Shown: positions 162 to 19,959 of the stretch, in pieces
How the letters are laid out: every line of letters starts with the position of its first letter
Numbering within the stretch: the stretch's first letter is position 1
Virus record (IMG/VR): IMGVR_UViG_3300042945_000300
Span: 1-22,141 of that record
DNA: 22,141 nt
From: a virus
Reading direction: 5' to 3' (one strand)
Position numbers and translations under genes: made by a program
Notes under the pieces: model-generated
What the model saw: only the letters and a program-made list of their open reading frames with translations
Told to the model about the DNA's origin: nothing
The model's database searches: none

Positions 162-1241
162 ATGACTGCTATTCTTGCAGCCCCTCGGTCTCAGTCCAAC
201 TGGGACCGTTTTTGTGACTGGGTAACCAGCACCAACAATCGTCTTTATGTTGGGTGGTTTGGAGTCCTTATGATTCCTTGCCTGCTTGCAGCAACCACCT
301 GTTTTATTCTTGCATTCGTTGCGGCTCCCCCTGTCGATATTGATGGCATTCGTGAGCCCGTAGCCGGGAGCCTTCTTTATGGAAACAACATCATATCGGG
401 AGCCGTCGTTCCGAGCAGCAATGCCATCGGACTTCACTTCTACCCAATTTGGGAAGCTAGTTCACTTGATGAATGGCTCTACAACGGGGGTCCATTCCAA
501 CTCACAGTGTTCCACTTCCTCATTGGCATCTATGCTTACATGGGACGAGAGTGGGAACTTAGCTATCGATTAGGGATGAGGCCCTGGATCTTTGTTGCAT
601 ACTCCGCCCCTGTCGCAGCCGCCACGGCTGTTTTCCTTGTCTACCCGTTTGGTCAAGGTAGTTTCTCCGATGCTATGCCTCTCGGTATATCGGGTACCTT
701 CAACTACATGCTTGTCTTCCAAGCCGAGCATAACATCCTTATGCACCCCTTCCATATGTTGGGTGTCGCTGGGGTGTTTGGTGGGTCGCTATTCAGTGCA
801 ATGCATGGTTCGCTTGTTACGTCCTCGCTTGTGCGTGAAACTACTGAAGAGGTATCTCAGAACTACGGTTACAAGTTTGGGCAAGAGGAAGAGACCTACA
901 ACATCGTAGCCGCTCATGGTTACTTTGGCCGTCTGATCTTCCAATACGCTTCGTTCAATAACTCTCGTAGTCTGCACTTCTTCCTGGCTGCTTGGCCGGT
1001 AGTTGGCATTTGGTTTGCTGCTCTTGGCGTGTCTACCATGGCCTTCAACCTGAATGGGTTTAACTTTAATCAATCGCTTCTTGACAACAAGAGCCACGTG
1101 ATTAATACTTGGGCAGATATTCTGAACAAGGCTAACCTTGGTTTTGAGGTAATGCACGAGCGCAACGCTCACAACTTCCCTCTTGATTTGGCTGCTGCTG
1201 AAACTACTCCTGTGGCTCTGGTAGCTCCTGCTATTGGTTGA
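162..1241 (+). CDS. psbA: Photosystem II D1 reaction-centre protein (phage psbA)
   Basis: Encodes 359 residues alignable with cyanobacterial D1 without gaps until the last residues. D1 is a five-helix thylakoid protein carrying the primary donor, Mn4CaO5 ligands and the QB site. Key residues sit at standard numbering: TyrZ Y161, H190, chlorophyll ligand H198, iron ligands H215 and H272, QB residue S264, and Mn ligands D170, E189, H332, E333, H337, D342 and A344, followed by a 15-residue tail normally removed by CtpA. Position 130 is Glu, the high-light form. Compared with common D1 sequences it has C40, A125, F144 and A171, the last beside Mn ligand D170. No intron or frameshift is visible. 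No clear Shine-Dalgarno precedes the ATG; translation may be coupled to the gene ending 8 nt upstream. In phages, psbA replaces decaying host D1 during infection. It lies just before the capsid gene, so late expression is likely. Confidence 0.98.
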
Positions 1242-17100: not shown

Positions 17101-18223
17101 CCAGCTTCATGTTGTTGGATCTAGTTATCAACCTTTATACATTAATACCACTGGCACTGGTGGGGGTGGCGCAGCGTTTCTTCGCTCAGGCACTCAAGCC
17201 CTTTATGTGGGCACCGCTGGGTCAAGCTGGCTTTCTGGGTCTTCGACCGCAGATGGACTTATTCGATCAGAAGCAAATCTCATTTTTGGTATTGGCAACA
17301 GCGAACGCATGAGGATTGACTCCTCAGGTCGAGTAGGGATTGGCACTACTTCGCCTGGCTACAAGTTAGACGTAAATGCGGAATCAAACTTAAACGGAAT
17401 CCGCATCGGCCTTAATGGCGACACCATCAATTCCACAACAGGCGGAGCTTCTGCGCTCCTCGCTTTTCAAACTAACAGCACCGAACGCGCCCGCATCGAC
17501 AGCTCGGGACGCCTGTTAGTTGGCACGTCTACTAGCGTTGGCTTTGGCGCAGGACTGCAGCTATTCGGGACATCAACTAACGGATACGCAGAGATCGTTA
17601 GGGGAGCTGCAAGTGGCGGTGGTCCTGGCCTGATTCTTACCAAGAGTAGAAACACCACGCCGGGTAGTTATACGATTGTCCAAAGTGGCGACAACCTTGG
17701 CCAAATTGATTTCAACGGAGACGACGGGACCGACTATGCAACCACCGGCGCTCAAATTTCCTGCCAAGTAGACGGCACCCCTGGCGCTAACGACATGCCG
17801 GGCAGGCTGGTCTTCAGCACCACCGCCGATGGAGCGAGCAGCCCGACGGAGCGGATGCGTATCGCCAACAATGGTGCAATCTCTACCGTTGTTCCAGGTG
17901 GATCTACTCTTTACCCCGCCTTCGCCTGCCGCGCCTGGGTGAACTTCAACGGCACTGGTACCGTGGCAATCAGGGCATCGGGTAACGTGAGCAGTATTGC
18001 GGATAATGGAGTTGGGAACTATTCGGTGAACTTTACGACGGGGCTGGCGGACGCAGACTTTGCCGTAGGGCTAGGCGGATCACAAGACGGTTTCAACGCT
18101 TCCACAAACTCAAACATAGGAACAGGTGGATTTGGGGCGGGACAGATCTCGCTTCTTTGCCGCAACAATGCTGATACAGCATATGTTGATTATGCCACTG
18201 TCACTTGCGGAGTATTCCGATGA
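14186..18223 (+). CDS. Tail fibre protein, T7 gp17-like N-terminus with beta-helix and repeat-rich C-terminus
   Basis: Encodes 1345 residues. Residues 1-120 match the T7 fibre tail-attachment domain (TENFYTGNGSTTSYSFTFQY, then IRIYRDT and AIRAQDLNEDF). Three copies of a D-x-x-(I/V)-ATT-x-A motif follow near residues 123, 154 and 230, probably trimeric shaft. From about 294 a YVDATAGDDNNDG / PKATIKAA segment and VVVAPGVYQE mark a pectin-lyase-like parallel beta-helix, so polysaccharide binding or cleavage is possible. The distal part has repeats of the type N-x-(x)-(E/Q)-R-x-R-(I/V) with S-x-G near residues 803, 872, 1038, 1097 and 1221, then a C-terminal module from about 1245 (AWVNFNGTGTVAIRASGNVS). 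Codon use changes near 16,530 from GGT/ACT-rich to GGC/CGC/GGA-rich, which suggests a swapped distal module. The gene is coupled to the next by ATGA. Confidence 0.92.
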   Translation: MAVTENFYTGNGSTTSYSFTFQYIDEDDIKVTLNGTLTTAYTLANATTVLFNSAPANGVAIRIYRDTNTDSLKSTFFAGSAIRAQDLNEDFLQNNYAVQEIQNYTWDNETQTIHSDEPWVSSDSQIATTAAIDARFQDELNETITSAEVWPDNDDTVATTAAIDNRIDSKIDAAITGDIGTDGTGITVTNDGDGTITLGLGTGTIDLDRIKDEDILTYAEQNAGSPSWDSDGRIATTYAAARRFDTLVQTSTPVGTNWAVGKTWLQNDANLTLSVWNGSAWLGIASGGTFTNQPKVVYVDATAGDDNNDGHRVSRPKATIKAAVNQINADAAYGEGSVVVVAPGVYQEVAPIDITKKDVSIIGQALRSCIVHPTAATETNSLFRLNSGSYIANLTLTGMKASGTRGNSTIDNDATYGLPENQGWNFSFYPGAMIYKSPYIQNCTNFSDSEINNSSLTPHTPAGGAGGDTDSAMTGGGLLIDGSTPHSTSPLRSMVCDSYTHVGLDGPGILVTNNGYCQATSSYSFFTHYHIKCRNGGQANLAASTTDFGRYSLVADGRSQNAIFTATTTALANSGSTTFTIGAPTAGSPWHGTATRPQSNMLVDIGGNTYPILSATAAGAGWTVTISRPDPANKSNNLGLNGSVAGGSAVSFYLRSMIASSGHTMEYVGSGTNYTALPENGGVPIEANQVIELNNGKVWAAITDHNGKFKLGDTLTVDQQIGFVTIPSGSIAFDLASDLSPQLGANLDVLNRTISSSTNNVRIDDTLEVNAGSAGTPAITFNGDTNTGIYSPGADQVAISTNGTQRLLIDSTGTISANSDVAVPNTKAYMVRDSGGTSRYAMYMSGSLSPSAGNDLFVGNTLNNNLIFYTNGTERVRVTNDGKLGLGTSSFNTGLLLQTAGGTSNGIGFLTSGTASVVWRLVQQGANDGSAGIMHGSSSARDFYIKSDGGGTANLLVDGKLGIGSISPDANSQLHVVGSSYQPLYINTTGTGGGGAAFLRSGTQALYVGTAGSSWLSGSSTADGLIRSEANLIFGIGNSERMRIDSSGRVGIGTTSPGYKLDVNAESNLNGIRIGLNGDTINSTTGGASALLAFQTNSTERARIDSSGRLLVGTSTSVGFGAGLQLFGTSTNGYAEIVRGAASGGGPGLILTKSRNTTPGSYTIVQSGDNLGQIDFNGDDGTDYATTGAQISCQVDGTPGANDMPGRLVFSTTADGASSPTERMRIANNGAISTVVPGGSTLYPAFACRAWVNFNGTGTVAIRASGNVSSIADNGVGNYSVNFTTGLADADFAVGLGGSQDGFNASTNSNIGTGGFGAGQISLLCRNNADTAYVDYATVTCGVFR

Positions 18224-18465
18224 ACAGAATCATCTTCCAAAACGAAATCGGAGGCATTTCCGTCATCATCCCAACCGGCGAACTTCCCATCAAGGACGTT
18301 GCCCAAAAGGACGTGCCTGCTGGTGTCCCTTACCTGTTGGCTGATGCAGCCGAAATCCCTGACGACCGCACCTTCCGCGATGCCTGGGAAGCCGACTTCA
18401 GCAACCCTGACGGCTACGGCATCGGTGCCGACGCTTACTTCGCCGCCAAGGAGGCAGCCCAATGA
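18220..18465 (+). CDS. Small fibre-associated protein, possible tail fibre assembly factor
   Basis: Encodes 81 residues starting at ATG 18220, which overlaps the fibre stop (ATGA); an upstream in-frame TTG is a less likely start. The sequence reads MNRIIFQNEIGGISVIIPTG, then KDVPAGVPYLLADAAEIPDD and RTFRDAWEADF. From memory, proteins with the DVPAGVPY ... DRTFRDAWE pattern are frequently encoded directly after phage tail fibres, but I know of no proven biochemical role. Position and coupling suggest a chaperone or fibre-tip partner. Codon use is C-rich like the end of the fibre and unlike the integrase downstream, so it probably travelled with the fibre's distal module. Confidence 0.72.
   Translation: MNRIIFQNEIGGISVIIPTGELPIKDVAQKDVPAGVPYLLADAAEIPDDRTFRDAWEADFSNPDGYGIGADAYFAAKEAAQ
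18448..18454 (+). promoter_or_regulatory. Strong Shine-Dalgarno for the 78-residue gene
   Basis: AAGGAGG lies seven bases upstream of ATG 18462, inside the end of the previous gene. It is one of the few near-perfect ribosome sites in the window and fixes this start. Confidence 0.75.
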
Positions 18466-18698
18466 TCACCATCAATCTGGACAAAGCCAAAGCCATTGGC
18501 CACGACAAGCGCCGCGTCATGCGGACTGAGGAGTTCAAGCCCTACGACGAAGTGATCATGAAGCAAATCCCCGGTAAGGATGCCGCTGAGGCAGAGGCCA
18601 AGCGCCAAGAGATCCGGGATAAATACGCTGCCATCCAAAGCGACATTGATGCAGCGCAAAGCCCTGAGGAGATCAAGACTGCTCTTGGGCTGGAGTAG
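18462..18698 (+). CDS. Small fibre-associated protein, second partner
   Basis: Encodes 78 residues: MITINLDKAKAIGHDKRRVM at the start, IMKQIPGKDAAEAEAKRQEI in the middle and a helical C-terminus ending EEIKTALGLE. It is charged and almost wholly helical, probably a short coiled coil. It starts within the stop of the previous gene (ATGA) behind an AAGGAGG ribosome site, so the two small genes and the fibre form one translational unit. Similar pairs follow fibres in other phages, from memory. Function is unproven: fibre trimerisation or assembly is a reasonable guess. Codon use matches the preceding gene. Confidence 0.7.
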   Translation: MITINLDKAKAIGHDKRRVMRTEEFKPYDEVIMKQIPGKDAAEAEAKRQEIRDKYAAIQSDIDAAQSPEEIKTALGLE

Positions 18699-18726
18699 TC
18701 CTACTCACTAAATTTTTTAAACTAAC

Positions 18727-18751
18727 GGGGATGCTATAATTGTTCATCCCC
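18727..18751 (+). promoter_or_regulatory. Hairpin enclosing a perfect TATAAT upstream of the integrase
   Basis: GGGGATG (18727-18733) pairs perfectly with CATCCCC (18745-18751). The 11-nt loop is CTATAATTGTT, so the consensus -10 TATAAT sits at 18735-18740. No convincing -35 is present; the region 17 nt upstream is a T-run. A short T-tract follows at 18759-18763, so the same hairpin could weakly terminate the fibre operon in RNA form. Both readings are inference. Confidence 0.45.
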
Positions 18752-18776
18752 CATCCACTTTTTCCACCCACAATTT

Positions 18777-19634
18777 ATGACTCTTGTTTTGATGGATGTT
18801 TGGAACCAGTTTGTTGCTGAACGTTCTATTTCTTTGGAAGCCACAAGTTTGACTTCTGATTATCGTCAAGCACAAAAATGGTTATCGCGTTGTCCTCATC
18901 AGAATTTTCAAACTGATGGAAGGGCTATAATGGTATGGTTGTTGCAGGAAAAACCAATTCAATCTGCTCGTCGTGTAGCGATGTATCTTAAAAGTTTATA
19001 TCGTTGGGCAAGTCAAGAAGATGTCGGTTTAATTGAACGCAACCCTATTCAATCGTTTAGGATGCCTAAAGCGCCACAACGCGATGAAGAAATCATTGTC
19101 ATTCCACGTAATGAACTTGATGTTGTCTTCTCAACCTTAGCTGATAAACGTACGTACAAATCAACTAATTGGGCAGCTTATGCTGAGTTTATGCTTCAAA
19201 CAGCAATGAGAACCGGTGAAGTACGGGCGCTAATGTGGGAAGATATTAAGGATAATAAAATCCTTGTTCACCGCAACTATACCCTTACTCACGGGCTTAA
19301 ACACAGCACCAAAACAAATAAAAAGCGTTGGGTTCCTCTCAACGATAAATGTCAGCAAATTCTTTCTACTCTTGATAGCAACAACAAGTTCCTTTTTCCT
19401 TGGGACCGGTTGGCTTATCAAAGTTATTTCCGAAAGAAAATGCAACAACTTAAGGCTGCTGAGTTGATCTCTAATCTTTATCGTCCTTACGATCTGCGTC
19501 ACACTGCAATCAGTCGCTGGATTGAGGCTGATATTCCTATTGCTCAAGTTGCTGCCTGGGCAGGAAACACTGCAGATGTGATCTGGAAACACTACGCAAA
19601 CACCACTCAAGAGTACAACATTCCTAACCTTTAA
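18777..19634 (+). CDS. int: Tyrosine recombinase / phage integrase
   Basis: Encodes 285 residues. The N-terminal ~100 residues resemble a SAM-like core-binding domain (MYLKSLYRWASQ). The catalytic domain contains Arg I R145 in TAMRTGEVRALMWEDI, a Lys beta-hairpin in KTNKKRWVPL (179-188), box II YDLRHT with R241, and nucleophile Y273 in WKHYANTT. Two common His positions differ: Y238 replaces the first His of HxLRH, a frequent variant, and N264 (AGNT) replaces the His/Trp of LGHS. Such enzymes integrate phage DNA at an att site. Base composition is AT-richer with T-ending codons compared with both neighbours, suggesting separate acquisition. It lies alone between the fibre cassette and the lysis genes, with a possible own promoter upstream. 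No tRNA-like att sequence is visible nearby. The enzyme looks intact; an active role in lysogeny is unproven. Confidence 0.92.
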   Translation: MTLVLMDVWNQFVAERSISLEATSLTSDYRQAQKWLSRCPHQNFQTDGRAIMVWLLQEKPIQSARRVAMYLKSLYRWASQEDVGLIERNPIQSFRMPKAPQRDEEIIVIPRNELDVVFSTLADKRTYKSTNWAAYAEFMLQTAMRTGEVRALMWEDIKDNKILVHRNYTLTHGLKHSTKTNKKRWVPLNDKCQQILSTLDSNNKFLFPWDRLAYQSYFRKKMQQLKAAELISNLYRPYDLRHTAISRWIEADIPIAQVAAWAGNTADVIWKHYANTTQEYNIPNL

Positions 19635-19638
19635 ACCT

Positions 19639-19959
19639 ATGTCTGATACCAATACGAGCTATACCTGGCGCGTTGCCAACCTTGAACGCGAAACTAGCGA
19701 CGGTTACGTTTACATCATTCACTACACTGTGGATGCCAAGGATGATACCTACAGCGCCGGAGCGTATGGCTCTATCGGCCTTGAGCGCCCTGAAGGCGAT
19801 CTGATTCCGTTCAGCGAACTGACTGAGGATCAAGTGGTCATGGAGTGGCTGCTGCCTAAGATTGGCGAAGAAAAGGTCCAAGAAATCCACGCAGCACTTC
19901 AGACTCAACTTGATGAGCAGCGTCAGCCCACTAAAGCCTCGGGACTGCCCTGGGCTTGA
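19639..19959 (+). CDS. Conserved cyanophage hypothetical protein (DUF7936-like)
   Basis: Encodes 106 residues. The pattern is TYTWRVANLERE-like: SDTNTSYTWRVANLERETSD opens it, then YVYIIHYTVDAKDDTYSAGA and YGSIGLE strands, an IPFSELTEDQVVMEWLLPKI helix, and an end of SGLPWA. From memory this is a small beta-sheet plus helix family common in cyanophages, sometimes labelled DUF7936; I have not been able to check that label. No function is known. It starts four bases after the integrase stop, but its C-rich codon use differs from the integrase and resembles the small genes upstream of it. It precedes the lysis genes. Confidence 0.65.
   Translation: MSDTNTSYTWRVANLERETSDGYVYIIHYTVDAKDDTYSAGAYGSIGLERPEGDLIPFSELTEDQVVMEWLLPKIGEEKVQEIHAALQTQLDEQRQPTKASGLPWA

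Follow-up and report, generated by a model that had tools for sequence, protein, structure and literature searches.

The window analysed here, a virus record of 22,141 bases taken as a whole, carries psbA, capsid, tail, internal core, and fibre genes, followed by orfA, orfB, an integrase gene (int), the DUF7936 gene, lysis genes, a small terminase gene, and an HNH gene (Table 1). The structural genes are named by their order. The closest named DNA relatives are Synechococcus podoviruses such as S-SBP1, S-RIP2, and S-CBP3; relatives of this type match 6%–13% of the window at 76%–84% identity. An earlier inspection of the letters alone (the sequence-only reading) had placed int between fibre helpers and lysis genes; it is confirmed to lie between fibre/orfA/orfB and a block of DUF7936, lysis, and terminase genes.

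Table 1. Features of the window, in order of position
Feature	Position	Strand	Remark
psbA (photosystem II D1), full-length	162..1241		Immediately before the capsid gene
Tail fibre, 1345 aa	14186..18223	+	Distal part: putative exchanged module
orfA, ~81 aa	18220..18465	+	Overlaps the fibre stop codon; in the putative left cassette
orfB, 78 aa	18462..18698	+	Last gene of the putative mobile left cassette
15-bp exchange site TAGTC-CTACT-C^A-CTA	18696..18710	+	Putative crossover between 18706 and 18707
7-bp hairpin, TATAAT in loop	18727..18751	+	Likely int promoter and operator (putative function)
int, tyrosine recombinase, 285 aa	18777..19634	+	Pfam, PHROG, alignment
DUF7936 gene (PF25590)	19639..19959	+	Most often the next gene to the right of the site or of int

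The int protein is a tyrosine recombinase. It matches PF00589 (Phage_integrase) with 57.7 bits (cut-off 27.1; E 1.7e-15) and is assigned to PHROG integrase. Residues R145, K179/K182, R241, and Y273 are invariant in all 20 aligned relatives, and the two other active-site positions are occupied by Y238 and N264. As the sequence-only reading had pointed out, N264 stands where His or Trp is usual. It is kept in 20 of 20 relatives and is thus a family trait, which gives no reason to follow that reading in inferring an altered efficiency. When the predicted structure (mean pLDDT 69) was submitted to Foldseek, the top matches of this model were Tn1549 Int, lambda Int, XerA, and Cre; a sequence search of the PDB gave one weak, misleading match. 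Only one named relative is close: siphovirus S-LBS1 has an integrase with 66.7% identity along its whole length, and the gene for it directly follows a tail-fibre gene.

The composition of int (GC 0.41, GC3 0.34) had been called atypical. This applies in comparison to the immediate neighbours (GC3 0.67/0.70 for orfA/orfB and 0.56 for DUF7936) but not to the genome, as the fibre, gp14, gp15, and gp16 genes have GC3 values of 0.27–0.42. In 16 of 18 relatives, the GC content of int is within 0.05 of that of its own locus, the exceptions being L005 and S-LBS1. It is orfA and orfB, not int, that look foreign: their GC3 (0.67–0.70 over 18220–18698) is well above that of the fibre gene (0.41) and of most of the window.

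According to the sequence-only reading, int is a lone integrase with no visible att site. However, a conserved 15-bp element, TAGTCCTACTCACTA, is present upstream of int, and its TAG (18696–18698) is the orfB stop codon. The 3' ends of orfB homologues in other phages (L004, L069, L092) coincide with the same 15-bp site. The integrase alone was used to retrieve 34 viral contigs. After loci with an incomplete int (9) were left out, the DNA upstream of 25 complete int copies and of S-LBS1 was compared as a set of 26 loci, and in 19 of these the site or a same-shaped variant lies at most 100 bp upstream of int. Relatives with the same placement and an associated site, which that reading had named as evidence against itself, are thus common. 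S-LBS1 has a partial site, TAGTCCCCTTCACAT, upstream of int; in L025, L026, and L027, the site is farther off (612 to 1684 bp upstream). In three of the 26 loci (L029, L030, and L032), no site was found upstream of int, and int there lies beside an opposite-strand gene which, read by eye, resembles fibre-assembly genes. As a control, random 100-bp windows of the same loci were scanned; the site occurred in 0 of 6911 at two mismatches and the loose pattern in 23 of 6911. The window holds no second copy on either strand with up to three mismatches.

The hairpin described in the sequence-only reading is present ahead of int. Its stems are GGGGATG (18727–18733) and CATCCCC (18745–18751), with TATAAT (18735–18740) in the loop. 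The stem is kept in L003, L004, and L007, which have TAGAAT in the loop, and TTGACA-type promoters were seen by eye at the same place in many other int relatives. It is thus likely, as had been suggested, that int has a promoter of its own, just to the right of the crossover position derived below.

Exact scans of viral contigs returned at least 119 stretches with TAGTCCTACTCACTA and 92 with TAGTCCTACTCTCTA. Among the matches listed, tail-fibre similarity mostly stops just left of the element, and DUF7936 often comes next; 23 of 210 element instances had no match to the tested window proteins. For named phages, the element is exact in S-CBP1 and S-CBP4, near-exact in S-CBP3, S-RIP1, and KBS-S-2A, and present as looser variants in DSL-LC07 and S-H1; it was not recognised in S-CBP2, S-CRES1, NATL1A-7, DSL-LC02, S-B28, WH11-B, and S-EIVl. 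A blastn search with a 45-nt query gave, at E up to 10, mostly chance matches, plus S-CBP4. In a sample anchored on TerS (at least 80 fetched, 28 loci usable), at least 6 loci have the exact site and at least 12 the loose pattern (several of these coding), and two further variants were seen by eye (L359, L362), so the site is not universal. In very many cyanophages, whether int is present or absent, tail-fibre genes carry the element at their 3' end. Look-alikes of the form TAG[T/C]C-N6-nCTA with the centres CCCAGA, CCCACA, ATCTCG, ATCTCA, and AGTACC proved to be coding repeats inside fibre genes and were dropped from later counts.

The non-redundant exact instances (165) comprise 40 types of left sequence and 84 types of right sequence, which combine many-to-many. 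Pairwise comparison of 174 instances with flanks yielded 49 pairs which share only the right flank, 183 which share only the left, and 8 which share both. We then counted, at successive positions, pairs which are alike on both sides versus on one side only. The counts are 16 versus 270 at the site, 20 versus 49 at the DUF7936 start, 40 versus 52 at the DUF7936 end, 21 versus 29 at the end of the next gene, and 16 versus 11 and 9 versus 6 at two later gene ends. Control positions gave 38 versus 9, 27 versus 13, and 20 versus 2 (+500, +1000, and +2000 bases) and 11 versus 2 and 6 versus 1 (−1500 and −3000 bases). The site is the strongest breakpoint, and the borders of DUF7936 are also breakpoints.

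Where right flanks are at least 95% identical (21 pairs), the left flanks are unrelated in 12 pairs, weakly similar in 6, and the same in 3. Pairs with near-identical right and unrelated left flanks include two in which both loci have int (L008/L010, 99.8%; L003/L004, 97.7%). Twelve pairs are alike well upstream and again rightwards from the site and differ in the segment ending at the site, examples being L038/L138 (97.2% over 5452 bp, then about 2.5 and 2.1 kb apart) and L057/L058 (95.0% over 4651 bp). In eight pairs read closely, the left junctions lie inside the fibre ORF, often in repeated motifs. Swapping is equally clear in pairs without int and with int. These comparisons make it very probable that tail-fibre cassettes are exchanged at the element. 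A second, left-hand site within the fibre gene (TAGTGTTCTCCACTA or TAGCCATCTCRACTA) was considered and set aside: some left breakpoints are near such motifs, but the motifs encode conserved peptides, and constraint on DNA was not separable from constraint on protein.

The crossover was mapped with 1193 left-similar and 267 right-similar pairs. Site bases 6–10 track the left flank (identity 0.99–1.00 in left-similar pairs); in right-similar pairs, bases 6–9 reach 0.72–0.75, close to the random level of 0.66–0.76. Base 12 tracks the right flank (0.71 in right-similar versus 0.49, the random level, in left-similar pairs). The same map is obtained where neither locus of a pair has int. The centre differs in 14 of 1193 left-similar versus 76 of 267 right-similar pairs, a left linkage that is partly inflated because most loci were retrieved by the exact CTACT site. 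The mapping was therefore repeated on samples retrieved without the site.

For one such sample, a right-flank hairpin was the sole means of retrieval; it gave 29 stretches, of which 19 were left once repeats had been removed. The site abuts the hairpin in 17 of the 19 (strict pattern), with the centres CTACT (9), ACCTT (7), and ATTAC (1), and the left ends before these centres differ correspondingly; of the remaining two, one has the variant AAGTCCTACTC and the other ends at a contig edge. The other sample, for which only a common fibre end was used, comprised at least 120 stretches, and 101 non-redundant ones were examined. Of these 101, 37 keep the 11-bp tail, which is followed by 36 different 14-mers, some without CTA; the remaining ones have a TAAGTAAACT end instead (22), run straight into terminator-like sequence (13), or are of other types (29). 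As both flank-only samples give the same junction, the crossover is placed after base 11, TAGTC-NNNNN-C^H-CTA.

Several sites may follow each other within one locus. The centres of 41 consecutive site pairs within 3 kb have a fixed order, CTACT being followed by ACCTT (14), ATTAC (8), ATTCC (7), CTACT (2), or CACGT (1), ATTAC by ACCTT (5) or ATTCC (1), and ATTCC by ACCTT (3); CTACT retrieval biases the first step of such arrays but not the later ones. The reverse order does not occur among the 41 pairs. The hairpin AACTTC...GAAGTT lies directly right of the site in 19 non-redundant loci (e.g., L046, L073, L124, L176, L217), and a second site is often found about 50 bp beyond it.

We propose that site-specific recombination takes place at the 15-bp element upstream of int, and that exchangeable fibre cassettes have this element as their 3' tail. 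A cassette would consist of a fibre end, optionally with small accessory genes, and the 11-bp tail TAGTC-NNNNN-C, and its junction with new DNA would fall between bases 11 and 12 of the site. Phages in one cell would swap fibre ends, the rest of the genome remaining unchanged. The most likely enzyme would be the recombinase encoded just right of the site, with its own promoter; it would serve its own genome and also, in trans, those co-infecting phages which carry the site and have no recombinase. Comparison between loci shows that the site exists, that its flanks combine freely, where the crossover lies, and how int is placed; catalysis by Int, occurrence in co-infection, and a change of host range we infer. 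To the explanation as a whole (fibre-cassette exchange at the site, Int as the likeliest enzyme, lysogeny not the main role) we would give an even chance. A wider version is more tentative and, in our judgement, falls short of being probable: a community-wide exchange among lytic phages, in which host-recognition cassettes with 11-bp tails and centres in fixed order (CTACT, ATTAC or ATTCC, ACCTT) are moved by a phage recombinase, both in cis and in trans, among podoviruses, siphoviruses, and larger phages alike.

That Int is the enzyme working the site is plausible, its likelihood being about equal either way, given its placement beside the site, its likely own promoter, its invariant catalytic residues, and the crossover map. 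Swapping that is equally clear without int argues against it, as do the three int relatives without a site. The additional breakpoints at the borders of DUF7936 count against the proposed explanation as well. Moreover, arms of 5 bp are short for a tyrosine recombinase, and differing centres recombine here, unlike with Cre or lambda Int. Among 24 phage records searched, 13, all of them with the site or a variant and some of them fragments, have no PF00589 match, so that Int would be needed in trans; such action during co-infection would reconcile these phages with Int as the enzyme. A different, and rather unlikely, explanation dispenses with Int: the element is a shared boundary or 3' tail (e.g., for mRNA processing), general phage recombination swaps the modules, and Int is a bystander or frequent passenger. 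Such an origin agrees with swapping and an identical crossover map in loci without int, and with the left junctions in repeated fibre motifs, which point to ordinary homologous recombination on that side; the fixed order of centres fits slot-specific linkers. It does not sit well with different centres having the same arms, with a centre that almost never follows the right flank (partly inflated by CTACT retrieval), with a single exchange position rather than any within the 15 bp, seen also in the flank-only samples, or with the strong placement of the site beside a recombinase.

We regard it as improbable that the phage is temperate or transiently integrating, with the element as attP, an unsampled host attB, and mosaicism from occasional Int-driven attP x attP crossing, even though attP normally adjoins int and some T7-like cyanophages integrate at tRNA-Leu. 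Among these, P-SSP7 and S-TIP37, which like the window have a tyrosine recombinase in an essentially lytic T7-like genome, carry downstream of int an attP identical to part of a tRNA-Leu gene, and are reported to integrate transiently, without lysogeny (PMC8776855). The contrast to P-SSP7 drawn in the sequence-only reading holds, since the window, a fragment, has no tRNA and its site lies at the fibre end; as that reading had it, no tRNA-type att was found in the window, but it missed the associated recombination site at the fibre 3' end. S-LBS1 (MG271909, gene A12) resembles the window in the integrase and its position after the tail fibre, the end of which is followed by TAGTCCCCTTC, and differs in being a siphovirus, not T7-like. 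In the published account, its integrase is taken to serve lysogeny, the portal and helicase genes are said to contain attP candidates, and induction gave no sign of integration (PMC6157547). In genomes of the host family, which was reached through a Prochlorococcus genome and may leave a freshwater host outside the sample, an int relative was found in 0 of 400 at E 1e-10, whereas an identical search of phage records detected it in 3 of 3. The 15-mer occurs in 1 of the 400, namely the genome through which the family was reached, and in 300 such genomes, matches to 18686–18776 do not exceed chance level. Neither an attP shared with host genomes nor prophages with int were found in the sampled genomes. 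Genome contigs had no match in the int search and 60 scattered 15-mer matches with no convincing host site, the four cyanobacterial ones (L248, L250, L300, L303) looking like chance matches by their context. Rather than a host tRNA site, the element at the fibre 3' end seems to be one for recombination from phage to phage, and lysogeny would not be the main role of int. Very improbable, finally, is that Int is a selfish single-gene element inserting at the site by fibre genes. Helper-embedded satellites, which are reported to have an integrase clade targeting prophage late genes (PMC10111431), offer a parallel in the tie to late genes, but the window has a single int gene and no satellite gene set. 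Site-bearing loci occur both with and without int, and int may come after DUF7936 (site-DUF7936-int, as in L056 and L243) or before it (site-int-DUF7936, as in the window), which favours insertion; on the other hand, the right end of int in the window has no further copy of the site, and the cassettes that are swapped are found to the left of the site, whereas int is to its right.

The proposed cassette exchange resembles integrons in that a gene with its 3' site is the mobile unit, a tyrosine recombinase gene lies by the platform, and the middle of the site is variable. It differs in the fixed slot order, in the position of the cassettes upstream of int on the same strand, and in its site, one at the 3' end of each cassette, of 15 bp. 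While the gene with its 3' site recalls integrons, centres in fixed order recall the differing sites of engineered cassette exchange. The shufflon recombinase Rci is also a tyrosine recombinase encoded beside variable adhesin ends; it inverts segments between inverted sites inside the gene, unlike in the window with its one site copy. The NCBIfam matches of the window protein include no integron-integrase family, and XerC, XerD, and PRK00283 are found below cut-off only. Integrons have been reported in phages, in a study of which the main text contains neither "cyano" nor "Synechococcus" (PMC9892861). Cyanopodovirus fibre genes are phylogenetically incongruent according to another study (PMC4646655), which fits an exchange of fibre cassettes. 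Our literature searches, which most subscription papers lie outside, found no report of the 15-bp site.

Integrase genes of aquatic phages are usually read as signs of lysogeny. The window int may serve the swapping of fibres rather than hiding in a host genome. If true, this would explain why lytic cyanophages keep integrase genes, would show how phages of abundant photosynthetic bacteria could alter their host range quickly, and would offer a defined 15-bp site for measuring exchange. Even if Int is not the enzyme, an exchange point common to very different phages asks for an explanation.

Some further observations concern the surroundings of the site. DUF7936 is its commonest right neighbour in both podo- and siphoviruses and could have to do with the exchange or with the fibre. 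TAGTG-TTCTC-CACTA, in which the arms pair perfectly, occurs in frame inside the fibre genes of S-CBP4, WH11-B, DSL-LC07, and S-LBS1 (L307:7431, L314:4347, L317:4010, L036:9595; peptide LVFSTTADG), and could be a left-hand site or just conserved coding sequence. In L427, L437, L444, and L481, the fibre end is followed by TAGACACC..., TAAACACC..., or TAGGCACC... without the site, and the DNA downstream is similar to one of the known right flanks, which suggests a deletion of the site. One locus filed under a Planctomycetota MAG (L304:1891) has a cyanophage fibre end, the site, and DUF7936, and is probably a mis-binned phage.
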